From: Alphaproteobacteria bacterium
GTDB lineage: Bacteria > Pseudomonadota > Alphaproteobacteria > ATCC43930 > CGMCC-115725
Length of the DNA: 64,000 bases
Assembly: GCA_028871455.1 (NCBI GenBank)
Contig: JAGWNF010000010.1
Coordinates: forward strand, 1 to 64,000
Direction: 5' to 3'
Below are positions 4,319 through 39,235 of this stretch, piece by piece. Below the pieces are notes generated by a model. It did no database searches and was not told the DNA's origin. It was given only the letters and a program-made list of their open reading frames with translations. A program made the translations under genes and the position numbers. Each line of letters starts with the position of its first letter. The stretch's first letter is position 1.

Positions 4319-7000
<2,682 letters not shown>

Positions 7001-26203: not shown

Positions 26204-29065
26204 TCAGTCGAGAAAGACGCGGTAGGCGGTTGGCTCGCGCAACGCGCGCCAGAGATTGGCGGCGCGCGAGCAGTCCGCGGCTTTGAGCAGCGACCAGAAG
26301 ACGTCGTCGCGCGCCGCCGGAACGGCGGCATCGTGCGCTCCGACGAGGCGTTGGGCGATCTCGAGCAAGCCGCACTGGAACGGCGCCTGCGCGATCTCGC
26401 AGCCGACGGCCCGCGCCAGCCGCGCACAGTCGATATGCGCCGGCGCAAAGCTGCGACCAGCGACGGCGAACATCGGCAGATCCGTCTCGGAATCGCCGAC
26501 CGCAACCGTGTCGCCGGCGTGGCCGGTCCAGGCGAGCAGGGCGGCAAGCCCCGTGCCTTTGTCGACGTCCTTCGCCAGGATCGTGGTGTCGATCGTCGTC
26601 TGATGCGCGAGCAGCCGGTCGAAACCGTTTTCGGCGATGAGATTGCGGACCAGCAGCTCAGGCAGCGGCACGGTGCCCTTGCGCGCGTAGGTGTAGGCGC
26701 GGATCGAGCATCCGTAGCCGTCGTCGACAAAGATTCCGGGCATGGCCTTGAGCAAGGCACGCAGCGCCGCGAGCTGCTCGAGCGCGACGTCGTCGAGCAG
26801 GACGCGGCCCTGACTCGTGGTCGCGTCCCAGATATAGCTGCCGCATTCCGCGACGCCGCCGACGAAGCCGTAAGCCTCGCAATAGTCGCGCACTTGGTGC
26901 GCCGGCCGCGCGGTATCGACCGCGATGGCAAAGCTCCGGCTGCCGAGCAACGCGAGCGCATCGAGGCCGGCGGCGGTCGTCGTCGGAAAACCGAAGGTTC
27001 GGCGATCGACCACGCCGTCGAGATCGAGCACCGCCAGCGGCGCGCGCCAGGTCGACGGCGCCTTGGGCGGACAAAGCGCGCCGCTGTAGCGGGCGCTTTC
27101 GCGCGTCAGGAAATTCCAGGCCTTGACGTATTGGGCGTTGAACTCGCCAGCGCGATGTGCGAGATGCGTCTGCTTGACGATGCCGTCGAGCGCCGCCTGA
27201 CGGGTCCACAGGCCGGCCATCAGCTTGCACAGCAGAAGGCGCTCGCCCGCCGGCGCGTCGCCGGTTGCCGCGCCATAGCGCGCCAGCAGCTCGGCCTGCT
27301 CGTCGCGCGTCAGGTCGAGCTGCAAGGCGGCGTCGGCCAAGTCATAGGCCGGATCGCAGAGATTGATCTCGTTCTTGCCGATGCCGTGATGCTCGAAATC
27401 GGTCTTGAGCAGGCCGCCGGGGCCGGCGATCCATTCGTCCGCCGCCATCCGGCCATCGATCAGCGCGGCGCGCGATTCCAGGCGGGCGGCGAGGCGGCGG
27501 CGGAGCGGCGCCGCCATCAAGCCGGCCACGCCGGGTCCGTAAGCCGCCGACAGCGTCTCGGCCAGCATCGTCAGGCCTTCGTGCTGCGCGTCGGGTTCGT
27601 TCGCCGTCGGGACCGGCAGGCGCTCGGCGCGGGCGGCGACGTAGGTCGCGGCGGCCGCGATCCAGGTGTGGCGCGGCACCATCGCGCGCTCGGTTTGTGC
27701 GGTTTGCGGCAGCCACTCGGTATAGAGAATCCCATCGCGCAGACCAATCAACGGCGGCACGCGACCACCGAGGCGATCCGCGGTCAGGAACGCGGCATAG
27801 GCGAGCCAGCCCCAGCCAACGCTCTTGGCGAAGACGTAGCGGAGCTCGCTGCCGGCGACGCTGTCGAGGCGAACCGTATAGACGCGCTTCAACCGATGCC
27901 GCCGGCAATCGCCCGAGCGATATTCGAGTTCGGCGTTGAAGGCTGCGGCCGCATGATGTTCGACGACGGCGACACCGCGATAGCCTTGAGCAAGAAAATA
28001 TTCACCGAGCCGCGCCTCGATCATATCGTCGTCGGCGAGCAGCCGTGCCTTGTGCCAATCCTCCGGCGGCAAGGTGATGATGGATTCACGGGCGAAGGCG
28101 GCGGCCTCCTTGTGCTCGCGCCAGTCGCGCCGCAGCGGATGGACCGGAAACAGCACCGAGCGGGCGCCGGCTCCGAAGCCCGCCCGGCGCAATATCTGGA
28201 CGGCCATGCCGATGGTATCGCCGCTGAACGGCGGATCGTCGATCAGCGCCGCGTGATAACCGGCCTGTGCCAGCGTGCGCAGCCGCCGTGTTTCTTCGGC
28301 CGATGGCCCCTTGTTGGGACGGATCGTCACGATCGCGGTGCGGGCGAAACCGTGCGCGGCGAGGCGCGCGCGCATGAGCGCAGCAAAATAGACGCCGGCC
28401 GTCCGCAGGCCGACGATGGCCACCGGCAGCGTGCGGTCCGGATATGCGGCTGCAAAGCGGTCCGCCAGCTCCACAACGTCCCCGTGCGTCAGGTCCTGCT
28501 TGCGGAAAGCCGACGGGATGCGAATCAGTTCGGCTTGCAGTCGCACCGGCAGCGGGCGCGCAAGAACTTGCGTCAGCCCACGCGCCGCCGCCGCGATGTC
28601 GTCGGCGCCGGCGGCGGTTTCGGCCGCGAGCAACCGCAGAAACGCATCGAGTGCGGCTTGCCAGTCGTCGCGCCAGCGCCGCAAATCGTGCGATTGGCGC
28701 GCGCGACCGGCCGCGGTAAGTAAATCCAGCGCGCGGATAACGAGGCGCATGCCCGGCAATTTGACGAGGCGATGCGGTACGCGCAGGACCGGACCGCGCA
28801 GCGCGTCCTCGACCGCAGTCAGCAGCGCGCCGGCAAGGAGGAACACGTTGATCATCGCCTCGGCGCGCTGCCAGCTTTCGGCCGGAACACCGAGCCGCGA
28901 CAGTTCCCGTTCGAGGTGACCCGCGGCCTCGCCGACCGTGCACAGCGGATTGAGCGACCACGGATAATCCGAATAAAACGTGCGCTCGGCCGCCAGCGGC
29001 TGGAGCGTGCCGGCTGCCCCCGGTTCGCTCCGATCGATCGCTTGAAGATTGCTGCGCAGTGTCAC
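26204..29065 (-). CDS. Three-domain protein: phosphoribosyltransferase-like, APH-like kinase, HAD phosphatase
   Basis: A 953-residue protein, unusual in its make-up. Residues 1-190 are helical and unassigned. About 190-310 look like a type I phosphoribosyltransferase: IVGLRTAGVYF, then a PRPP-loop-like AALIDDPPFSGDT (272-284). About 345-660 resemble an aminoglycoside-phosphotransferase-like kinase: a K in FAKSVGWGW, a hinge ILYTEWLP, and KTDFEHHGIGKNEINLCDPAYDLADAA, where the usual HxD is replaced by LIDGRM. About 675-900 are a HAD phosphatase with Cof-type cap: DLDGVVD (681-687), T718, K836 and GDSETD (857-862). Together these could transfer ribose-phosphate, phosphorylate and dephosphorylate one small molecule. 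It is 16 bases after the GNAT gene and ends the surface-cluster operon. The GTG start has a weak ribosome-binding site. Confidence 0.75.
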   Translation of the reverse strand: MTLRSNLQAIDRSEPGAAGTLQPLAAERTFYSDYPWSLNPLCTVGEAAGHLERELSRLGVPAESWQRAEAMINVFLLAGALLTAVEDALRGPVLRVPHRLVKLPGMRLVIRALDLLTAAGRARQSHDLRRWRDDWQAALDAFLRLLAAETAAGADDIAAAARGLTQVLARPLPVRLQAELIRIPSAFRKQDLTHGDVVELADRFAAAYPDRTLPVAIVGLRTAGVYFAALMRARLAAHGFARTAIVTIRPNKGPSAEETRRLRTLAQAGYHAALIDDPPFSGDTIGMAVQILRRAGFGAGARSVLFPVHPLRRDWREHKEAAAFARESIITLPPEDWHKARLLADDDMIEARLGEYFLAQGYRGVAVVEHHAAAAFNAELEYRSGDCRRHRLKRVYTVRLDSVAGSELRYVFAKSVGWGWLAYAAFLTADRLGGRVPPLIGLRDGILYTEWLPQTAQTERAMVPRHTWIAAAATYVAARAERLPVPTANEPDAQHEGLTMLAETLSAAYGPGVAGLMAAPLRRRLAARLESRAALIDGRMAADEWIAGPGGLLKTDFEHHGIGKNEINLCDPAYDLADAALQLDLTRDEQAELLARYGAATGDAPAGERLLLCKLMAGLWTRQAALDGIVKQTHLAHRAGEFNAQYVKAWNFLTRESARYSGALCPPKAPSTWRAPLAVLDLDGVVDRRTFGFPTTTAAGLDALALLGSRSFAIAVDTARPAHQVRDYCEAYGFVGGVAECGSYIWDATTSQGRVLLDDVALEQLAALRALLKAMPGIFVDDGYGCSIRAYTYARKGTVPLPELLVRNLIAENGFDRLLAHQTTIDTTILAKDVDKGTGLAALLAWTGHAGDTVAVGDSETDLPMFAVAGRSFAPAHIDCARLARAVGCEIAQAPFQCGLLEIAQRLVGAHDAAVPAARDDVFWSLLKAADCSRAANLWRALREPTAYRVFLD

Positions 29066-29081: not shown

Positions 29082-30329
29082 TCACGCGGACCGGCGCCGG
29101 AAGACAGTCTCCAGCTTATGGAACGTCCACTGCATGAATGGCAGCACGGAGATCAGGAACGGTCCCGGCGACCGGCCCGACGTGGCGAGAATCGTCTGGA
29201 TGATGCGCCGGTCCAGCCAGATCTGCTTGGTCAGCGCCGGGCCCGGCGACGAGCACGAATCCATCCAGCGGATCCAGGCGTGGCGATGGACCTCCTCGAT
29301 ATTCGCGAGTTCGAGCAGTACGCCGGGCGAAAACCGCGCATAGGCTTCGTCGAAGGCGACCTTGAAGGCGAACGATCCGTTGCGGCAGAGAAAATTGCAC
29401 AGTTGCGCGATCGGTCGGCCATTGAGCGTCAGCGCCAGCATCATCAGCCGGCCGCGGCGAAACGCTTCCTTGAGGGCGTCGGCGAAGAACTGCTTTTGTG
29501 CCGGATGGCACGACAGCGCCGTGCCTTCGTGGCCCTTCCAGCCGCTCGCTTCGAGGCGCAGGAATTCGTCGATCCAGCCGACGACGTCGCCGTCGCCGGC
29601 AAGCAAGGTATAATCGAGCGCGCCCTGGCGGCCGAGCGCGTTCTCCTGCTGGCGCAGCGTGCGGCGTTTCTTGGTCGACAGCGCTTCGTCGAGATAGGCC
29701 TTCGCGTCGGCACGCGGCCGCAACAAGGCGCGCGTCGTGCATTCGAGCGTCAGGATCGGGTCACGGCGTTCCTCGAGGAATTCGACGAAGGATTCCCACA
29801 GCGGACCGTCGCCCGAGATGCCGCCGAACTCGATCAGGATGGCGCCGCGCGGATCGCTCGCGGCCCAATCGAACACGGCCTGAAAGCAGGCCTGGGCGGT
29901 CTCGCCGCGGATGAGCGGACTGCACAGGAAGCAGTGAACGTGCTTCCACAGGCGCAGCGCGCTGAATGGCAGATTCTTGTAATGGGTCTGGCGTTCGAAC
30001 GGGAAGAAGCCGCACAGCACCGGCTGGTCGGCCGATGCCGGGTCCTGCGCGTAGACGAGCACGAATGCGAGCTCGGCGCCGCCGCGCAGATGCTGCAGCG
30101 CCGGCAGCAGCATCCACGGTTCGTAGAACACGTTGGGCTCGAGCGCCTCCGTCGCCAGCTCTTCCCAGGCCCTGAGATGGCGCGCGAGGCCGGCCGCGTC
30201 GCGTTCGACGACGACCGTCAGTCGCGCGTCTTTGGCGATGCGCCGGGGTTTGGCGTCGTCGGTGCGGACCGCCGGGGTACCGGCCGGCGCGTGCGCCAGG
30301 GAGACCGCGGGTTCGGCCATGGCGCTCAC
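29082..30329 (-). CDS. CelD/BcsL (FemAB-like) GNAT acyltransferase
   Basis: A 415-residue protein of the CelD/BioF2-like GNAT family. The signature runs from KKRRTLRQQENALGRQG through FLRLEASGWKGHEGTAL to GRPIAQLCNFLCRNGSFAFKVAFDEAYARFSPG. Such proteins have two GNAT folds and take part in polysaccharide or lipid surface structures, probably acylating sugars or ligating amino acids from charged tRNA. Members sit in exopolysaccharide and cellulose operons. The GTG start overlaps the ATP-grasp stop at GTGA, so translation is coupled. Donor and acceptor cannot be told from the sequence. Confidence 0.85.
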   Translation of the reverse strand: MSAMAEPAVSLAHAPAGTPAVRTDDAKPRRIAKDARLTVVVERDAAGLARHLRAWEELATEALEPNVFYEPWMLLPALQHLRGGAELAFVLVYAQDPASADQPVLCGFFPFERQTHYKNLPFSALRLWKHVHCFLCSPLIRGETAQACFQAVFDWAASDPRGAILIEFGGISGDGPLWESFVEFLEERRDPILTLECTTRALLRPRADAKAYLDEALSTKKRRTLRQQENALGRQGALDYTLLAGDGDVVGWIDEFLRLEASGWKGHEGTALSCHPAQKQFFADALKEAFRRGRLMMLALTLNGRPIAQLCNFLCRNGSFAFKVAFDEAYARFSPGVLLELANIEEVHRHAWIRWMDSCSSPGPALTKQIWLDRRIIQTILATSGRSPGPFLISVLPFMQWTFHKLETVFRRRSA

Positions 30330-31555
30330 GCGGCCTCCGCGTCGAGGGCGCGATGCGAGCGCGTCAGCCGCGCGAAGCCGCGTTGCATCAGGCTGCCGAT
30401 CTCGGCGATTCCCGGCGCGGGATCGTCCAGCGTCAGGCTGTCCCAGCGCTCGCGCAGCGTCAGCATGTTGGCGACGGTTTCGGCGACGACCGCCGGCAGC
30501 TTCTTGGTTGCCAGCGTCGGATCGCGGCGGTTGGCATGCAGATTGGCGAGCTGCCAGTCGAGATCGAGCGGCAGGTTGCGGGCGAAGATACCGGTGCGGT
30601 AGTGCACTGGAAAATCGCGCCGGCCGGTGGTGAGAAACTCGAAAAGCGCCAGCGGAAAATCCGCGCCGGCGGCGACGCTCAGCGGCAGCGAGCCCCAGAA
30701 GCGGGCGTTGACCTCGACGAAGATCCAGTCGCCGGTCGACGGATTGACCTTGAACTCGACCATGGCGACGCCGGTGTAGCGCACCGGCCGCAGAATACGC
30801 AGCGCGGCGTCGAGCAATTCCGGCGACAGCGCGACGCTCTTGCGATAAGTGCTCTGGCCGCCTTCGAGCGGCTCGTGCACGCGAACGTGCTGGAACGCCA
30901 GCAGCTTTTCGCCGCGGTCGAGCAGCAGCTCGACGCCAGCGCCGTGGCCGATGAAATTCTGCTGTGCCGCCACCGGGCCGCAGGCCAGGAACTTCGGCAG
31001 GACGCGCGACAGCTCCGCCTCGCTGCGCACTTTGCGCACCGCCAGGCCTTGGCTCGCATGATCGAAGGTGCGCGACGGCTTGAGCACCAACGGCGCGCCG
31101 AACTCTCGCCAGGCCGCGCGTCCGCCCTCCATGTCGGTGACGATGATCTCGCGCGGCAGCCGCACGCCGGCGTCGCGCGCCAGCGCGTTGGTGCGGTGCT
31201 TGTCGAAGAGCACGGCGATCGCTTCGTCGTTCGGCGTGTAAATGCGCCCGAACGGCTCGAGGTCGACGCGGTGGCGGTGGAGCGCGAGCGTGTCGATGTC
31301 GGTGCAGGGAACGATCAGGTCGAAGCGCTCGCGCCGCATCAAATCGACGAGCGCCGTCTTCCAGCCGAGGTCGGTATCGCTGTAGGGCGGCAGCTTGTGC
31401 GCCGCGTGGAGGTAGCGCGAGCGCAGCGAAATGCAGTTCGGCCGGTTCCAGGCGCTATGCACTTCGACGCCGCCGCGACCGAGCGACCGGATCACGGCCA
31501 GCACGGTCCGCGACACGCTCGACAGGACCAACGCCTTTTTCATGGGGTTGCTCAT
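30326..31555 (-). CDS. ATP-grasp ligase (carbamoyl-phosphate-synthase-like fold)
   Basis: A 409-residue ATP-grasp protein. The pre-ATP-grasp Rossmann-like domain (LVLSSVSRTVLAVIRSLG) is followed by PLVLKPSRTFDHASQG (ATP lysine and small loop) and the metal-binding FVEVNARFWGSLPLSVAAG. It joins a carboxylate to an amine or thiol with ATP. Proteins with FVEVNARFWGS often occur in polysaccharide and peptide modification clusters next to FemAB-like transferases, as here. The ATG at 31555 (MSNPMKK) is chosen; one at 31543 is possible. It overlaps the GNAT gene by 4 bp. Substrates unknown. Confidence 0.85.
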   Translation of the reverse strand: MSNPMKKALVLSSVSRTVLAVIRSLGRGGVEVHSAWNRPNCISLRSRYLHAAHKLPPYSDTDLGWKTALVDLMRRERFDLIVPCTDIDTLALHRHRVDLEPFGRIYTPNDEAIAVLFDKHRTNALARDAGVRLPREIIVTDMEGGRAAWREFGAPLVLKPSRTFDHASQGLAVRKVRSEAELSRVLPKFLACGPVAAQQNFIGHGAGVELLLDRGEKLLAFQHVRVHEPLEGGQSTYRKSVALSPELLDAALRILRPVRYTGVAMVEFKVNPSTGDWIFVEVNARFWGSLPLSVAAGADFPLALFEFLTTGRRDFPVHYRTGIFARNLPLDLDWQLANLHANRRDPTLATKKLPAVVAETVANMLTLRERWDSLTLDDPAPGIAEIGSLMQRGFARLTRSHRALDAEAA

Positions 31556-31964: not shown

Positions 31965-33038
31965 TCAGCCGGCCGCCCGGCGTCGTTCGCCGGACGGCTG
32001 CGCCGCTTGCGGCAGCGTCCTGCCACGCGCCGCATCCATCGCGCGATAGACGCCCTGCGCCGACGCCGGCCGGCCGCCGATCTCGCCCATGAAGAATTCG
32101 AGATAGCCGTCGAGCCAGGCGAGGAACTGCTCGAGGTCGCGGCGCGTGCGGACATAGGGCGTGTGCCCGACGCCGAGCGACGGGCTGTGATAGCTGATGA
32201 CGAAGACCTGCTGCTCGCCCCGGCGGACGAGGGCGCGCGTCAGGCGCTTGGCTTCGGCGAGGGTCACGCCTTCCGGGCTAAGGCGAATCCGGTCGAGCAG
32301 CCGCGCGCGGGCGCAGACCGCCGTGGCGCGCAACCGCACGCCGTGCGTGCCGCCGATCCACGGGAACACTTCCTCGCCGAAGCGATGGAACAGGCCGAGA
32401 AATCCGGTCGTCAGCGGAATTTCGAGCAGCCGCTCCGCACCGCCGAACCAGAAGGGATCGGGCGACCAGTGACGGAAATCCGGACCCGCGATCGGCCGCA
32501 GATCGGTCCAGGGCAGTACGCTCGAATCGATCAAGAATCCCAGTTCGTCCAGCAAGGCGCGGGTCTCGGCGTCGGCACCGTAGCGCCCGGCGCGGTAGAC
32601 GATCGGCGCGACGCCGAGATTATGCTCGATGGTCTGTTTGAGGATGATCAGCTTGCGGTGCTCGAGATCGCGCGGCAGGTTGCAGGCGAAGGAATTGCGG
32701 TCGCCGACCTCTTCCTCGACCGGCGGCGTGACCCAGGGATGCAGGTGCGCGCCGATCTCGCAGCGCGCGTCGGCCAGGAATTCGCGCAGCGGCTGGTAGC
32801 CGTCGGCCTGCACGGCGACCGGATAATCGACGAGGTAGACCGGCTTGACGCCGTAACGGTCGAAAACCATCTGCGCGCGCCACTGGTGCTTCATCGCCGT
32901 GACGCCGCGCGCGTCGCTCGAGAAGTTCTTCTGCCAGTCGAACTCCTCCTCGGTATCGACCAGGACCAGGAGCTGCGGCGGCGTCGACGCCGGCAGGCAT
33001 CCGCGGTGAGGCATCGGCGCGGTCCGATCCGCGGTCAT
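31965..33038 (-). CDS. Polysaccharide deacetylase family protein (WalW-like)
   Basis: A 357-residue protein of the NodB-homology/polysaccharide deacetylase fold. The metal and catalytic residues can be placed: LVLVDTEEEFDW near the start, then IGAHLHPW (metal histidines), RAGRYGAD, and a late HSPSLGVGHTPYV segment. WalW-type members act in polysaccharide clusters. They remove acetyl or similar groups from amino sugars or precursors. The ATG at 33038 overlaps the flippase stop at ATGA, so it is the second gene of the operon. No signal peptide is visible, so it probably works in the cytoplasm on a precursor. Confidence 0.85.
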   Translation of the reverse strand: MTADRTAPMPHRGCLPASTPPQLLVLVDTEEEFDWQKNFSSDARGVTAMKHQWRAQMVFDRYGVKPVYLVDYPVAVQADGYQPLREFLADARCEIGAHLHPWVTPPVEEEVGDRNSFACNLPRDLEHRKLIILKQTIEHNLGVAPIVYRAGRYGADAETRALLDELGFLIDSSVLPWTDLRPIAGPDFRHWSPDPFWFGGAERLLEIPLTTGFLGLFHRFGEEVFPWIGGTHGVRLRATAVCARARLLDRIRLSPEGVTLAEAKRLTRALVRRGEQQVFVISYHSPSLGVGHTPYVRTRRDLEQFLAWLDGYLEFFMGEIGGRPASAQGVYRAMDAARGRTLPQAAQPSGERRRAAG

Positions 33039-34618
33039 GTGGCGCGTCGTCCCACGGCGGGCAGCGACAGGCGGCGGCTGACGCTGCGCAGAAGCACGGC
33101 TTCCGGACCGTCGGCGCCGCCGCTCAACGTCCACAGCGCGATCAGCAATCCGACATAGACTGCCGCCCCGATGGCCGCCGCGATGCCAAGCTGCGCCAGC
33201 GCCGCCGACAAGGTGCTCGCCGCCGGCGCCCAGGCGAAGCCGAAATGCGCGAGAACCAGCGCCATGCCGGCGGTGGCGGCGGCCGACCGCCAGGTCTCGC
33301 CGATGAGCACGCTGACACGGAAGCCCGTGACCCGCCGCAGCACGACGATATAGATGGCGCTTTCGAGCGTCAGCGCGATGCCGGTCGCCCAGGCCAGGCC
33401 TGCGAGCCCGCCGAGCAGCACGCCGGCAATCAGCAAGGGCACGCGGAGCAGGGCCATGGCGGCGGTCGTGAAGGTGGTGATCTTCGGATTGCCGATCGCC
33501 ATCACGCCGAGCATGCCGATGTTGGTGATGACGGAGAACGTGGCAAACGGGCCGACGATCGCCACCAGCGGAACGCCGCTGAGCCACGCCGGACCGAGAG
33601 TGACGCGGATGAGCGGCGCCGCGACCAGCGAGATGCCGACGCCCGCCGGCAGCACGATGCACAGGGTCGCCGCCATCGCCTTGGCCAGCGTGTCGGACGA
33701 GCCGCGACCGCTGTGATGGATCGCCGACAGTCCGGCATAAAGGGCGCGGCCGACGGGCTCGACGAATTCGCTGATCGGCAGCAGCGCGACCTCGAGCGAG
33801 GCCGAGAACAGGCCGACGGCGCTCGTGTTCATCAGGCGGCCGACAATGAACGAATCCGCGCGCTCACGGCAGAAGCCGGCGACGCTGGTGCCCCAGATCC
33901 ACGACGACATGCCGAGCAGGCGCCGCCAGGCGACCAGCGTCAGACGGGGACGGAACGGATGCATGGCATAGCTCAGCCCGACGCGCGCGGTGCGTTGCAC
34001 GACGATGCCGATGACCAGCGCCCAATAGCTGCGGGTGACCAGCGCAGTCGCGACCGTCGCAATGACGGCGGCGACGCGCGGCACCATGAACAGCAGAAAG
34101 TCGCGGTCGAATCGGAAGTGACGGCGGAAATCGAGCGCGCCGACGTTCTCGCAGCTCTCGATCACCAGGAGCGGACCGAGGATGAGCAGGATGACGCTCA
34201 AACGCTCGTCGCCAAAGAATCGGCCGACCGGATAGGCGGCAGCGACGATGACCAGTGCCGCGATCCCGGTACGGATGAGGCCGAGCGTGAAGCCGGTGCT
34301 GTAATACGCCTCGTCGGGATTTTTTTCGCGCAGCATCACGTCCTGAATGCCGAGCGTCGCCATGGCGTCGATGGCGCGTGCAAAGGCGCCGGCGAGAGCC
34401 ACCAGACCGAAATCCATCGGCGACAGCAGGCGCGCGAGCACAAACGTGCTGAGCGCGCCGAGCGTCCGGGTGGCGAAGCGCCACGTCACCATCCAGCCGG
34501 CGCCGCGCACCGTCTTTTTGGCGAGTGACTCGTCCGGCGCAGTGGCATCGCTGCCGCTATCGCCATCGCTCCCGAGAATGTCGACCATTGCGTGAAGCGT
34601 TATTCCTGGGCGCGCCAT
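33035..34618 (-). CDS. Wzx-type polysaccharide/lipid flippase
   Basis: A 527-residue membrane protein with about 12-14 hydrophobic segments and the Polysacc_synt/RfbX pattern: an N-terminal VRGAGWMVTWRFATRTLGALSTFVLARLLSPMDFGLVALA, then ERADSFIVGRLMNTSAVGLFSAS. These proteins move lipid-linked sugars across the inner membrane. It is the first gene of the leftward five-gene run, 4 bp coupled to the deacetylase. The start could also be the internal ATG at 34588. Two CtrA-like sites lie upstream. No glycosyltransferase or polymerase gene is nearby to supply its substrate. Confidence 0.88.
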   Translation of the reverse strand: MARPGITLHAMVDILGSDGDSGSDATAPDESLAKKTVRGAGWMVTWRFATRTLGALSTFVLARLLSPMDFGLVALAGAFARAIDAMATLGIQDVMLREKNPDEAYYSTGFTLGLIRTGIAALVIVAAAYPVGRFFGDERLSVILLILGPLLVIESCENVGALDFRRHFRFDRDFLLFMVPRVAAVIATVATALVTRSYWALVIGIVVQRTARVGLSYAMHPFRPRLTLVAWRRLLGMSSWIWGTSVAGFCRERADSFIVGRLMNTSAVGLFSASLEVALLPISEFVEPVGRALYAGLSAIHHSGRGSSDTLAKAMAATLCIVLPAGVGISLVAAPLIRVTLGPAWLSGVPLVAIVGPFATFSVITNIGMLGVMAIGNPKITTFTTAAMALLRVPLLIAGVLLGGLAGLAWATGIALTLESAIYIVVLRRVTGFRVSVLIGETWRSAAATAGMALVLAHFGFAWAPAASTLSAALAQLGIAAAIGAAVYVGLLIALWTLSGGADGPEAVLLRSVSRRLSLPAVGRRAT

Positions 34619-34783: not shown

Positions 34784-35746
34784 TCAGTCGGAGCGATAGA
34801 GCGGTAGCTTGGTGCCGGCGGCAGTGCGCTCGGTCACGATGTCACGACGGAAGCGGAACAGCTTCGCCGGCCGCCCGCCGGTCGCAGTCGCGACCTTGCC
34901 GGTCTCCTCGACGAGACCCTGTTGCTCGATCAGTCGGCGGAAGTTCTGCTTGTGGAGACGCTGACCGGCCAGCGCTTCGACGGCGCGCTGGAGCTGGAAC
35001 AGCGTGAAGCTTGCCGGCATCAACTCGAACACCACCGGCCGATACTTGATCTTGGCGCGCAAGCGCGCGATGCCGGTGGCGAGGATACGGCGATGGTCGT
35101 GCGCCATCGGCGTTCCCATTGTCGGATCCGCGGCATCGCGGTCGCCGCCGGACTCGGCAACCAGCCCCGCTTCCCACAGCAGCTCGTACCGCTGCAGCAC
35201 GAACTCCTCGTTCCAGCTCCGACCGCCGCCGGCGAACGTGACGGCGATGCGCTCGCGGCGATTGCGGCGCAGCACCGTCGGCGCCCGTTGCGCCCAGACG
35301 CGCAGCCGCGGCGCGATCCTGCGAGCGAGCACGGCAGGCGGGCCGCGGCGCCAGTCCTCCCAGGGGAAATAGCGGTACCAGTTGCACCAGGTGGCATCGG
35401 CGGCTCCGGCGTCGCCGCGTTCGCGCGTCAGCCCGAGATAGCTGATCGAAATCCGCCGTTCGATCGCCGCCTCGCGTGTGCGCTCGCGATCAGCGAAGGT
35501 GTAGAGTTGCTCGATGTAGCCGAGCGCATGGCCGGTCTGATCCTCGACCCAGGCGCGCAGGCCGCTGTGGAGCGTGCGATGACGCGACTGTAGCGGTCCC
35601 GAGGGCAGCGCGATGCCGCCCTGCAAGGCCAACACGCGCGGCTCGTCGCCGGCGACCGCGACGATGACCGCCGTCAAGTCGACGGCCAACCGGCCCTCCG
35701 GCCGCTCATCCGCGTCCGGGCTGGAAGGATTGGGTCGTGCGCCCAC
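34784..35746 (-). CDS. nrtR: NrtR, Nudix-related transcriptional regulator of NAD synthesis
   Basis: A 320-residue protein: an N-terminal Nudix-like domain with a degenerate Nudix box (VDLTAVIVAVAGDEPRVLALQGG onward), binding ADP-ribose or a related ligand rather than cutting it, and a C-terminal winged helix (SFTLFQLQRAVEALAGQRLHKQNFRRLIEQQGLVE). NrtR represses NAD genes and lets go when ADP-ribose rises. Its position divergent from nadABC strongly supports this role. Start is a GTG at 35746 with no clear ribosome-binding site, so the N-terminus is uncertain; a start further in is possible. Confidence 0.88.
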   Translation of the reverse strand: MGARPNPSSPDADERPEGRLAVDLTAVIVAVAGDEPRVLALQGGIALPSGPLQSRHRTLHSGLRAWVEDQTGHALGYIEQLYTFADRERTREAAIERRISISYLGLTRERGDAGAADATWCNWYRYFPWEDWRRGPPAVLARRIAPRLRVWAQRAPTVLRRNRRERIAVTFAGGGRSWNEEFVLQRYELLWEAGLVAESGGDRDAADPTMGTPMAHDHRRILATGIARLRAKIKYRPVVFELMPASFTLFQLQRAVEALAGQRLHKQNFRRLIEQQGLVEETGKVATATGGRPAKLFRFRRDIVTERTAAGTKLPLYRSD

Positions 35747-35763
35747 GCCGCCGTCGCTCCGAC

Positions 35764-35794
35764 TTGACAGGTCTTATAGTCAATCCTAGCATAA
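35764..35794 (+). promoter_or_regulatory. nadA promoter with overlapping NrtR-like operator
   Basis: TTGACA at 35764-35769 and TAGCAT at 35787-35792 are 17 bases apart. A 21-bp imperfect palindrome from TTAT (35774-35777) to ATAA (35791-35794) covers the spacer and the -10. Its outer half-sites match the alphaproteobacterial NrtR pattern TTATACTC...GAGTATAA in part. Binding there would block RNA polymerase and shut off nadABC. Confidence 0.5.
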
Positions 35795-35804
35795 TATTCG
35801 GTCT

Positions 35805-35829
35805 GGGCGCTTGCGCCCGTTTCTTTTGT
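35805..35829 (+). terminator. Hairpin plus T-tract in the nadA leader (possible attenuator)
   Basis: GGGCG at 35805-35809 pairs with CGCCC at 35814-35818 around a 4-base loop, followed by GTTTCTTTTG. It has the form of an intrinsic terminator but lies between the promoter and the nadA start at 35858, so it may cut nadABC transcription in some conditions. The stem is only 5 bp, so its strength is doubtful. Confidence 0.35.
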
Positions 35830-35857
35830 ACCAGAAATGCTCAATGGGAGCATAATT

Positions 35858-36829
35858 ATGCCGGACACCTTGCCGCTGAGCCAGCTTTACGAGCGCGTCC
35901 GCCCCGTCGTGCCGCCAGTCGAGTGGCCGGCCTTCGCCGACGACATCGCCGCAATCCGCGCGTTGAAGCGCGAACGCGACGCCGTCATCCTGGCGCACAA
36001 CTATCAGACGCCGGAAATCTTCCATTGCGTCGCCAACATCACGGGCGACAGCTTGGCGTTGGCGCGCGAGGCGGCGAAAACCGACGCGCGTGTGATTGTG
36101 CTGGCCGGTGTCCACTTCATGGCCGAGACGTCGAAGCTCCTCAATCCAGACAAGACCGTCCTGGTTCCGGATCTGCGTGCCGGCTGCTCGCTTGCCGAGT
36201 CGATCACGGCCGCCGATGTCCGGTTGCTGCGCCGGCGCTATCCCGGCGTGCCGGTGGTCAGCTACGTCAACACCTCGGCCGCGGTTAAGGCGGAATCCGA
36301 CATCTGCTGCACCTCGGGCAACGCGAAGCGGATCGTCGAATCGCTCGGCGTGCCGCGCGTCATTATGTTGCCCGACGAATATCTGGCGCAGAATGTCGCG
36401 GCCGAGACCGCGGTCGAAATCGTCGCCTGGCACGGCCGTTGCGAGGTCCACGAGCGTTTCAGCGCCGCGGAAGTCCGCACTTTGCGCGCGGAGCATCCGG
36501 GTCTCGTCGTCCTGGCCCATCCCGAATGCCCGCCCGACGTCGTCGCCGCTGCCGATTTCGCCGGCTCGACGGCGGCGATGTCGGACTACGTGGCGCGGCG
36601 CCATCCGGCGCGCGTCGTGCTGCTGACGGAATGCTCAATGAGCGACAACGTGGCGCTCGCCCATCCCGAGGTCGCGTTCGTGCGGCCCTGCAATCTCTGC
36701 CCGCACATGAAGCGCATCACCCTCGCCAACATCCGGCAGGCGCTGGAAACGATGACACACGCGGTGACGATCGATCCATCGATCGCCGACCCGGCCCGTC
36801 GTGCCGTCGAACGCATGCTGGCGGTCTAG
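35858..36829 (+). CDS. nadA: NadA, quinolinate synthase
   Basis: A 323-residue iron-sulfur enzyme that condenses iminoaspartate with dihydroxyacetone phosphate to quinolinate. Recognisable parts: [23 protein letters not shown], the cysteines in [16 protein letters not shown] and CNLCPHMK that hold the 4Fe-4S cluster or line the site, and the HPECP segment. ATG at 35858 has GGGAG seven bases before it; an ATG at 35837 is in frame but lacks one. First gene of nadA-nadB-nadC, three bases ahead of nadB. Confidence 0.95.
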
Positions 36830-36832
36830 CGC

Positions 36833-38383
36833 ATGGACTCCGCTCCGCAGAGCTTCGCCGGTCGGCCGGTGGTGATCGGTGCCGGCATCGCCGGGTTGAC
36901 GACGGCGCTCCATCTTGCGCCCGAGCCGGTCGTGCTGCTGGCGAAGGCGTCGCTCGGCTCGGATTGTGCCAGCGCCCGCGCGCAAGGCGGCATCGCCGTT
37001 GCGGTCGGCCCGGACGATGATCCCGACGATCACGCCGCCGATACGCTGGCTGCCGGCGATGGCCTCACGGAACCGGGGGTGGCACGGCGGGTCACCACCG
37101 AGGGTCCTGCGGCACTCGCCGAACTCGTCCGCCGTGGCGTCGTCTTCGATCGGCGCGCAGACGGCGGCTACAGCCTGGGGCTCGAAGCCGCTCATACGCG
37201 GCGCCGTATCGTGCACGCGTCGGGCGATGGCACGGGACATGCGATCACCGCCGCGCTGATCGCGGCGGTGCGGCGAACGCCATCGATCACGGTGCTTGAG
37301 AACGTCGACGCGCGGCGGCTTCTCGTCCGGGATGGCGCGATTGCCGGCGTAATCGCCACGCGTGAAGGCCGCGCGGTCGTGTTGCCGGCTAGGCGCGTCG
37401 TGGTGGCGACCGGCGGGATCGGCGGACTTTATCGCGAGACGACCAATCCACTGGCCGCCATCGGCCAGGGTCTGGCGCTGGCGGCGCGCGCCGGCGCGGC
37501 ACTGGCCGACATGGAATTCGTGCAGTTTCATCCAACGGCGCTCGATGTCGGTCGCGATCCGATGCCGCTGGTTAGCGAAGCGGTGCGCGGCGAGGGCGCG
37601 TGGCTCGTCGACGGTGCCGGACGCCGGATCATGGCCGGGTATCCGCGCGCGGAGCTCGAGCCGCGCGACGTGGTCGCCCGCGAAGTCTGGCGGCTTTCGG
37701 CGGCCGGCGGCCGCGCCTATCTCGATGCGCGGCAGGCGCTCGGCAGCCGCTTTGCCGACCGCTTTCCCGGCATCGCCGCCGCATGCCGCGCCGCGGGTAT
37801 CGATCCCGCCGTTGAACCGATTCCGGTCCGCGCCGCCGCGCATTATCACATGGGCGGCATTGCCGCCGATGCGGCTGGCCGTAGCACGGTGCCGGGTTTA
37901 TGGGTGGTCGGCGAAGCCGCCGCCACCGGCCTGCATGGCGCCAATCGCCTAGCCAGCAATTCGCTTCTCGAAGCCTGCGTCTGCGCGCGCTGGGTGGCAG
38001 AGTCCGTTGCCGGCGCCGAGATGCGGCCGTGGCGCCGTGTCACGGCCGGTGTTCCGCCGATCCCGCCGCCGTCAGATGCGCGCGGCATCCGCCGGGTCAT
38101 GGCGGAACGCGTCGGCGTATCGCGCGACCGCGACGGCTTGCGCACCGCTATTGGTGCCCTGGCGGAGTTCGCTTTCGACGCCGGCCCCGCAGCCGACCCC
38201 GCGCTCGTCGGCCTGTTTGTCGCAGTCGCGGCCCTGCAGCGCGAAGAAAGCCGGGGCAGCCACTATCGCAGCGATTTTCCGCGGCCATCTTCCGCGTCGG
38301 CGCGTCGCTCCTTCCTGCGGCTCGCGGACTTGCAGCACGCCGCGCTGGCCATGGTCGATCGTCGCGTGCGCCTGGAGGCCTAG
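36833..38383 (+). CDS. nadB: NadB, L-aspartate oxidase
   Basis: A 516-residue flavoprotein that oxidises aspartate to iminoaspartate for NadA. The FAD-binding motif VVIGAGIAGLTTALHL is near the N-terminus; ASARAQGGIA-like sequence (CASARAQGGIAVAVG) and HFHPTAL-type MEFVQFHPTALD plus AAHYHMGGIAADAAG are the succinate dehydrogenase/aspartate oxidase hallmarks. Starts three bases after the nadA stop and ends three bases before nadC. Normal length. Confidence 0.95.
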   Translation: MDSAPQSFAGRPVVIGAGIAGLTTALHLAPEPVVLLAKASLGSDCASARAQGGIAVAVGPDDDPDDHAADTLAAGDGLTEPGVARRVTTEGPAALAELVRRGVVFDRRADGGYSLGLEAAHTRRRIVHASGDGTGHAITAALIAAVRRTPSITVLENVDARRLLVRDGAIAGVIATREGRAVVLPARRVVVATGGIGGLYRETTNPLAAIGQGLALAARAGAALADMEFVQFHPTALDVGRDPMPLVSEAVRGEGAWLVDGAGRRIMAGYPRAELEPRDVVAREVWRLSAAGGRAYLDARQALGSRFADRFPGIAAACRAAGIDPAVEPIPVRAAAHYHMGGIAADAAGRSTVPGLWVVGEAAATGLHGANRLASNSLLEACVCARWVAESVAGAEMRPWRRVTAGVPPIPPPSDARGIRRVMAERVGVSRDRDGLRTAIGALAEFAFDAGPAADPALVGLFVAVAALQREESRGSHYRSDFPRPSSASARRSFLRLADLQHAALAMVDRRVRLEA

Positions 38384-38386
38384 GCG

Positions 38387-39235
38387 ATGGCCGTTCCCCC
38401 GCTGCCGTCGATCATGATCGAGCCGTCGGTGCGCGCCGCGCTGCTCGAGGATCTCGGCCGTGCCGGCGATATCACCACCGACGCGGTCGTGCCGGTTGAG
38501 GCGCGCGCCGAGACCGCCCTCGTCGCCCGCAGAGCCGGCGTCGTGGCGGGACTCGACTGCGCCCTGATGGCGTTCCGACTGATCGAGCCCGCCATCAAGA
38601 CGGACGTCAAGCGGCCGGATGGTAACGCGGTTGGCACGGGCGACGTGATCGCGACGATCGCCGGCCCGACGCGCGGTATCCTGTCGGCGGAGCGCGTCGC
38701 GCTCAATTTCCTCTGTCATCTGAGCGGCATCGCCTCGGCGGCGGCGGTGATTGTGCGATCGATCAAGGGCCATCACGCGCGGCTCGTCTGCACGCGCAAG
38801 ACCGTACCGGGCCTGCGCGCGCTGCAGAAATACGCCGTGCGCGTCGGCGGCGGGTTCAACCATCGCTTCGGTCTCGATGACGGCGTGCTGATCAAGGACA
38901 ACCACGTCGCTGCTGCCGGTGGTCTGGCTGCTGCGGTCACGCGCGCCCGTGCCGCCATCGGCCACCTGGTCAAGATCGAGCTGGAGGTGGACACGCTGGC
39001 GCAGCTCGAAGAGGCGTTGCGGCTGCCGGTCGATGCCGTGCTGCTCGACAACATGAGCCTCGACGAGCTCCGCCGCGCCGTCGCGCTGGCCGATGGCAGG
39101 CTGATCACCGAAGCGTCCGGCCGGATCACGGCCGAGACCGCACCGGCCGTTGCCGCGACCGGCGTCGATCTGCTGTCGAGCGGCTGGCTCACGCACAGCG
39201 TGCCGGCGCTCGACATTGGTCTCGACTGGCGTTGA
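38387..39235 (+). CDS. nadC: NadC, nicotinate-nucleotide pyrophosphorylase (carboxylating)
   Basis: A 282-residue quinolinate phosphoribosyltransferase. It converts quinolinate and PRPP to nicotinate mononucleotide. Motifs: LNFLCHLSGIAS, CTRKTVPGLRALQKYAV, GGGFNHRFGLDDGVLIKDNH and VLLDNMSLDE. It is the third gene of the NrtR-adjacent operon. Directly after its stop lies a fragment of another gene. Confidence 0.95.
   Translation: MAVPPLPSIMIEPSVRAALLEDLGRAGDITTDAVVPVEARAETALVARRAGVVAGLDCALMAFRLIEPAIKTDVKRPDGNAVGTGDVIATIAGPTRGILSAERVALNFLCHLSGIASAAAVIVRSIKGHHARLVCTRKTVPGLRALQKYAVRVGGGFNHRFGLDDGVLIKDNHVAAAGGLAAAVTRARAAIGHLVKIELEVDTLAQLEEALRLPVDAVLLDNMSLDELRRAVALADGRLITEASGRITAETAPAVAATGVDLLSSGWLTHSVPALDIGLDWR

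Follow-up and report, generated by a model that had tools for sequence, protein, structure and literature searches.

The window, the whole 64,000-nucleotide stretch of alphaproteobacterial DNA analysed here, encodes a single 953-residue protein that combines, from its N to its C terminus, a helical region, a type I phosphoribosyltransferase (PRT) domain, a putative APH/choline-kinase-like domain and a C2-cap HAD phosphatase domain. The part from the helical region to the kinase-like domain also occurs on its own, as an undescribed family, in nine other sampled alphaproteobacterial genomes. We tentatively propose that the fusion protein belongs to a surface-glycan or lipid-linked-glycan pathway, in which it would carry out a multi-step, PRPP-dependent ribosylation.

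Results

A single frame conserved in the genus

The first-pass annotation had described one continuous 953-residue chain, and the frame is indeed present on the minus strand, from 29065 to 26204 (Table 1). All the motifs quoted there were recovered: AALIDDPPFSGDT at residues 272-284, LIDGRM...KTDFEHHGIGKNEINLCDPAYDLA at 535-577, DLDGVVD at 681-687 and GDSETD at 857-862. GC content by codon position in this frame is 0.73/0.52/0.82. The overlapping antisense frame of 796 residues is disfavoured as coding by codon-position GC, by the HAD match and by the full-length orthologs. Intact full-length orthologs are found in two other genomes of the genus (76% identity in L006, 71% in L007), and the three proteins have the N-terminal start MTxRSNLQ in common. 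An artefactual fusion is ruled out by the conservation of the full-length frame in three genomes. Identity between orthologs varies along the chain: 58-66% in the helical region, the least conserved part apart from the tail (60-63%), 78% in the PRT domain, 72-79% in the kinase-like domain and 79-82% in the HAD domain. Because of this higher identity, the three putative enzyme domains appear more constrained than the helical part and the tail. A third genome of the genus, G002, contains only decayed pieces of the kinase-like domain, and the rest of the operon appears to have been lost there. These remnants lie on two contigs (L004 and L005), differ slightly from each other and adjoin an NrtR-like gene. 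The fusion protein had no match in phage, plasmid or viral collections. Neither a Pfam or NCBIfam model nor any paper that we found describes this order of domains, in agreement with the view that it was undescribed.

Table 1. Coordinates of the fusion protein, its parts and the neighbouring genes in the window
Feature	Position	Strand	Basis or remark
Fusion protein, 953 aa: helical, PRT, kinase-like, HAD	26204..29065	minus	GTG start; orthologs L006:8001-10874, L007:973-3837
N-terminal helical region, residues 1-189	28499..29065	minus	aligned also in two-domain relatives
Type I PRT domain, residues 190-345	28031..28498	minus	profile, hhalign, predicted model
PRPP-loop-like AALIDDPPFSGDT, residues 272-284	28214..28252	minus	motif; VDEGPGLSGSS in distant relatives
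Putative APH/choline-kinase-like domain, residues 346-668	27062..28030	minus	PDB profile matches (moderate)
Kinase motif region, residues 536-575	27341..27460	minus	D537, R539, E544, K554, D556, H560, D575 invariant in 9 aligned sequences
HAD phosphatase domain, C2-type cap, residues 674-905	26351..27046	minus	Hydrolase_3, PDB profiles
FemAB/GNAT-type acetyltransferase (Acetyltransf_6)	29082..30329	minus	E 8e-24; 16 bp upstream of fusion gene
ATP-grasp protein, likely start MKKALV at 31543	30326..31543	minus	CPSase_L_D2, E 4e-7; 4-bp overlap with GNAT gene
Putative one-helix membrane protein, 48 aa	31805..31951	plus, opposite operon	conserved in L006 at 5099..5245 (minus), ~83% identity
WalW/polysaccharide-deacetylase-like protein (presumed)	31965..33038	minus	sequence type; 4-bp overlap with flippase gene
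MOP-family flippase (Polysacc_synt_3)	33035..34618	minus	E 1.6e-59

The PRT and HAD domains

Three enzyme domains had been assigned in the order given above; the PRT and HAD assignments now stand firmly, the kinase assignment moderately. From a predicted model together with profile comparisons, residues 190-345 are firmly placed as a type I PRT domain. The model of residues 30-345 (pLDDT 72, pTM 0.72) realigned with PyrR at Z 12.5 over 126 residues with an rmsd of 2.9, a match that bears on the PRT part of the model and not on the fold of the helical region; structure prediction and fold comparison thereby bear out the PRT fold suspected from the letters. Most of the 50 rows of the fold alignment list were PRTs, with PyrR and orotate, uracil and purine PRTs on top. 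Because a few periplasmic binding proteins reached Z 10-11 in the same list, we base the identity of the domain on the combination of fold, loop motif and sequence. Foldseek with the same model returned a mixed list with no E below 0.001, and a whole-protein model built with three close homologs had a pLDDT of 40; the Foldseek list of the latter still consisted mostly of PRTs. At the sequence level, the PDB matches of the family profile included an orotate PRT (E 0.0027) and, lower in the list, uracil PRT and PyrR, and hhalign against the genome's own PRTs gave E 6e-5 versus 0.15-0.48 in unrelated comparisons. The Pfam Pribosyltran model scored 13.5-14.1 bits, below its curated cut-off of 26.3. 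The PRPP loop, IDDPPFSGDT, consists of an acidic pair and small residues. D276 and the P, S and G are invariant in nine sequences, the second D of the acidic pair is E in the relatives, and the final T is A in L007.

Residues 674-905 are firmly assigned by sequence to the HAD-IIB (Cof-type) phosphatase family. Pfam Hydrolase_3 matched at E 4e-7 (30.5 bits, above the cut-off of 20.9), none of the narrower NCBIfam HAD subfamily cut-offs was reached, and the PDB profile matches were YidA and other Cof-type hydrolases. The motif residues D681, D683, T718, K836, D858 and D862 are present and invariant in the orthologs. Motifs I and II are 37 residues apart and motifs II and III 118 residues apart, which is the layout of a C2 cap located between motifs II and III.

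The kinase-like domain

Residues 346-668 likely adopt a kinase fold, and we assign this third domain to the kinases with moderate confidence. No Pfam model matched it. The best PDB profile match was the choline kinase LicA, at E 0.0029 over 229 positions and at 0.026 with one sequence added; the best PDB match of a reversed-sequence control profile had an E of 0.75. Among three PDB matches, a second chain of the choline/ethanolamine-kinase family, 3dxq, was found at E 0.2-0.5. Comparison of this part by hhalign with three APHs of the same genome gave nothing, and the alignment was poor. In the LicA alignment, D537 corresponds to the catalytic Asp, E544 to the Asn ligand, D556 to the metal Asp of the DFD-like motif and D575 to a later conserved Asp. 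The HxD motif is altered, as had been claimed: its His is replaced by Leu here and by Glu or Ala in relatives, and the Asn metal ligand is absent, E544 occupying its position. Yet the catalytic and the metal Asp equivalents (537 and 556) are both kept and are invariant across the aligned sequences, distant relatives included.

Relatives without a HAD domain

The profile built from the genus found relatives of this two-domain type at E 3e-8 to 1e-11. According to a PRT-kinase profile, these distant proteins (~580-650 aa) come from one f142 genus (g162, five genomes), two f71 genera and single f47 and f72 genomes, all of the same class. We guess that g162 is Methylobacterium. The aligned relatives, for example L015:8730-10469 and L016:10009-11754, are collinear with the fusion protein and homologous over the whole helical-PRT-kinase part, with 22-24% identity and with the invariant residues in common, but they lack the HAD domain; none was seen in the frames read. 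No Pfam model scored above threshold in them, and the one that was scanned had no NCBIfam match. Among at most ~970 sampled genomes (the samples overlap), the HAD-fused form was seen only in the genus of the window. A distant match at L014/L020 is RpoC and was rejected as a false positive. The contig end in L028 (G112:C589) carries part of the kinase region again, in inverted orientation, possibly as an assembly artefact.

The context of the relatives was read at L015, L016, L019, L027 and L075; L017, L018 and the G304 locus were left out and L028 was too short. It is mostly of glycan type. L015, L016, L019 and L027 are clusters with NAD-dependent epimerases and several glycosyltransferases (Pfam was run on L015), and the L075 relative adjoins a KpsC-like gene, read by eye. 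A B12/radical SAM protein is encoded in L015 (TIGR04295, NCBIfam) and, as read by eye, in L016 and L027; we found no paper mentioning the TIGR04295 cluster under the names tried. L015 (by Pfam) and L016 (by eye) further contain an inositol-phosphate synthase and a histidine phosphatase, neither of which was seen in L019 or L027, along with a nucleotidyltransferase, a methyltransferase and a FemAB/GNAT gene. The L015 histidine phosphatase is similar to alpha-ribazole phosphatase at 1e-33, below the model cut-off. The histidine phosphatase of L015 and L016 could perform in trans the step proposed for the fused HAD of the window.

Gene neighbourhood of the fusion gene

In L006 the genes follow one another in the same order (flippase, WalW-like, ATP-grasp, GNAT, fusion) but with another outer flank: a PEP-carboxylase-like gene (read by eye) takes the place of NrtR/nadABC. 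The ATP-grasp gene, two genes upstream of the fusion gene, had gone unmentioned in the first-pass annotation. Its product matches ATPgrasp_Ter at 1.6e-5, with 25.1 bits, below the cut-off of 29.1. The WalW-like protein had no Pfam or NCBIfam match; we take it to be WalW/polysaccharide-deacetylase-like from its DTEEEFDW-type sequence. The 48-residue frame and, near it, a promoter-like block of 24 bp (GCTTTACCATTCGGATGCTATAGA), fully conserved between the window and L006, lie between the flippase/WalW-like pair and the ATP-grasp/GNAT/fusion group. Because this opposite-strand frame and the block part the two gene groups, there are probably two transcription units. The WalW-like gene had no match in G002, which is consistent with a joint loss of this gene and the fusion gene. 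Among the genes nearby, we identified neither an ordinary glycosyltransferase nor a polymerase.

Beyond the flippase gene, positions 34784..39235 of the window hold a standard NAD-synthesis locus with an NrtR-like regulator, nadA, a flavoprotein in the nadB position and nadC. Elsewhere in the same genome, L049 (G000:C17:158001-178000) is a separate exosortase-type exopolysaccharide cluster, identified by eye, with the second WalW-like gene of the genome and an APH gene (L049:7002-8105).

Discussion

In the cycle that we infer, with its acceptor and its order of steps, the PRT domain would use PRPP to attach 5-phosphoribose to an acceptor (a glycan, a cyclitol or a lipid-linked molecule) through a hydroxyl or amine of the latter, and the fused HAD would then strip the 5'-phosphate, leaving a plain ribosyl group. 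The kinase-like domain would phosphorylate the acceptor or the product, thereby priming or capping it; an inactive domain would bind it instead. The deacetylase-like, ATP-grasp and GNAT proteins would decorate the product, and the MOP flippase would move it. This ribosylation scheme is supported by the PRT fold with its acidic PRPP loop and the complete, invariant HAD motifs, by the gene order kept in L006 despite a different flank, by the apparent joint loss in G002, where decayed kinase pieces have no accompanying WalW-like match, by the occurrence of the two-domain relatives in glycan-type clusters or beside a KpsC-like gene, by the inositol-phosphate synthase and the histidine phosphatase of L015 and L016, and by the precedents of Bcs3, Cj1432 and the O7 kinase discussed below. 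Several points count against it. The fusion gene has no ordinary glycosyltransferase or polymerase nearby, the usual acceptors of canonical type I PRTs are the nitrogen nucleophiles of bases, the class of the HAD cap differs from that of CrpP, no histidine phosphatase or inositol synthase was seen in L019 and L027, and the deacetylase call lacks Pfam support.

In Bcs3 of Haemophilus influenzae b and Cj1432 of Campylobacter jejuni, the transfer of ribose-5-P from PRPP and its dephosphorylation by the HAD of the same chain were shown experimentally (PMC10299916, PMC12096443), and the Bcs3 transferase resembles PRTases (PMC10299916). Like these proteins, the fusion unites a PRPP-type transferase and a HAD phosphatase in one chain, in a glycan context. 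However, it has a kinase-like domain instead of their further transferase domain (CroT, or a GT4 domain), and its HAD follows the PRT, whereas theirs precedes the PRPP-using domain. Moreover, the HAD of CrpP carries a helical cap as an insertion in the flap that follows motif I (PMC10299916), unlike that of the fusion, which has a C2-type cap and only 37 residues between motifs I and II. The gPRT-PRP dual-domain ribofuranosyltransferases also carry out phosphoribosyl transfer followed by HAD dephosphorylation (PMC11127046, PMC11231755). The cycle proposed here has this two-step logic in common with them. Kelly et al. are said to have described gPRT in 2022 as strongly divergent from classic PRTs; the fusion protein differs in its recognisable type I PRT fold and in its kinase-like domain. 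CriT and gPRT were not among the PDB sequence or fold matches listed for the fusion, which does not in itself speak against homology, and the PDB searches showed no sequence match to Bcs3 or Cj1432. In view of the different type of HAD cap and the lack of detected transferase homology, we do not file the protein in the CriT-CrpP or gPRT-PRP family, although it may still work like them. As for the kinase, the terminator ORF6 is a methyltransferase-kinase that caps the O7 O antigen through its AmiN-like kinase domain, in a ribofuranose-containing system (PMC11231755). The role that we propose would be similar, a kinase domain acting on a glycan in such a system, but ORF6 fuses its kinase to a methyltransferase and a coiled coil and has no PRT in the chain.

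The Ter-linked pathway of PRTase, ATP-grasp and HAD proteins has a mix of enzyme classes similar to that of the fusion locus, ATP-grasp included. The fusion locus differs by its kinase-like domain and its flippase, and its PRT is outside the Ter Pfam families, as judged by comparison of Pfam models. The earlier caution that no Ter gene is present was justified: TerD gave 0 matches in the genome, with control matches in Bacillus subtilis and Deinobacterium, and no Pfam match to a Ter-type PRTase or TRSP domain was detected in the fusion at E up to 0.1, or up to 1. These absences weigh on the idea, put forward in the first-pass annotation, that the protein makes one ribose-derived small molecule. 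For a soluble nucleoside-like product, the PRT would ribosylate a base-like core, the kinase and HAD would phosphorylate and dephosphorylate it, the ATP-grasp and GNAT proteins would attach an amino-acid group and an acyl group to it, and its export would be through the MOP-type transporter. The tight packing of the ATP-grasp gene (with its sub-threshold ATPgrasp_Ter match), the GNAT gene and the fusion gene is in favour of such a product, as is the canonical PRT fold. However, the flippase is a polysaccharide-type MOP protein and the two-domain relatives are found among glycosyltransferases. The gene neighbours, here and around these relatives, point more to glycans, and we regard a small-molecule product as rather unlikely.

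A salvage-type enzyme, in which the PRT makes a nucleotide that the HAD and kinase convert to the nucleoside and back, would fit the PyrR, orotate, uracil and purine PRTs at the top of the structural neighbours and the nadABC/NrtR genes adjoining the locus in this genome. Given that a PEP-carboxylase-like gene, and not the nad genes, lies upstream in L006, and that the relatives whose context was read are not in nucleotide loci, this seems very unlikely. It is also improbable, if slightly less so, that the HAD is the sole active enzyme and that the PRT and kinase-like domains serve, in part or entirely, as binding modules without catalysis, comparable to the regulator PyrR and to pseudokinases. 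Replacement of the HxD His and the Mg-binding Asn suggests this possibility, as does a PRPP loop that departs from the usual pattern, with its last Thr changed to Ala in L007, whereas the conservation of D276, S281 and G282 in the PRT and of D537, E544, D556 and D575 in the kinase-like domain across 20-25% identical relatives argues against it.

Returning to the ribosylation of glycans, we speculate, with more reserve than for the fusion protein itself, that the two-domain family and the HAD-fused form constitute a new class of PRPP-dependent ribosyltransferases with a nucleotide-type PRT fold, whose acceptors would be glycans or lipid-linked cyclitols and whose activity would be coupled, within one chain, to a kinase and, in this genus, to a 5'-phosphatase. 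PRPP-using glycan ribosyltransferases have been recognised only recently, and those described have unusual transferase folds. If the present proteins act on glycans, the standard type I PRT fold, accompanied by a kinase-like module, would also have been recruited for glycan ribosylation, and a family of alphaproteobacterial glycan clusters that no Pfam or NCBIfam model covers would gain a testable function.
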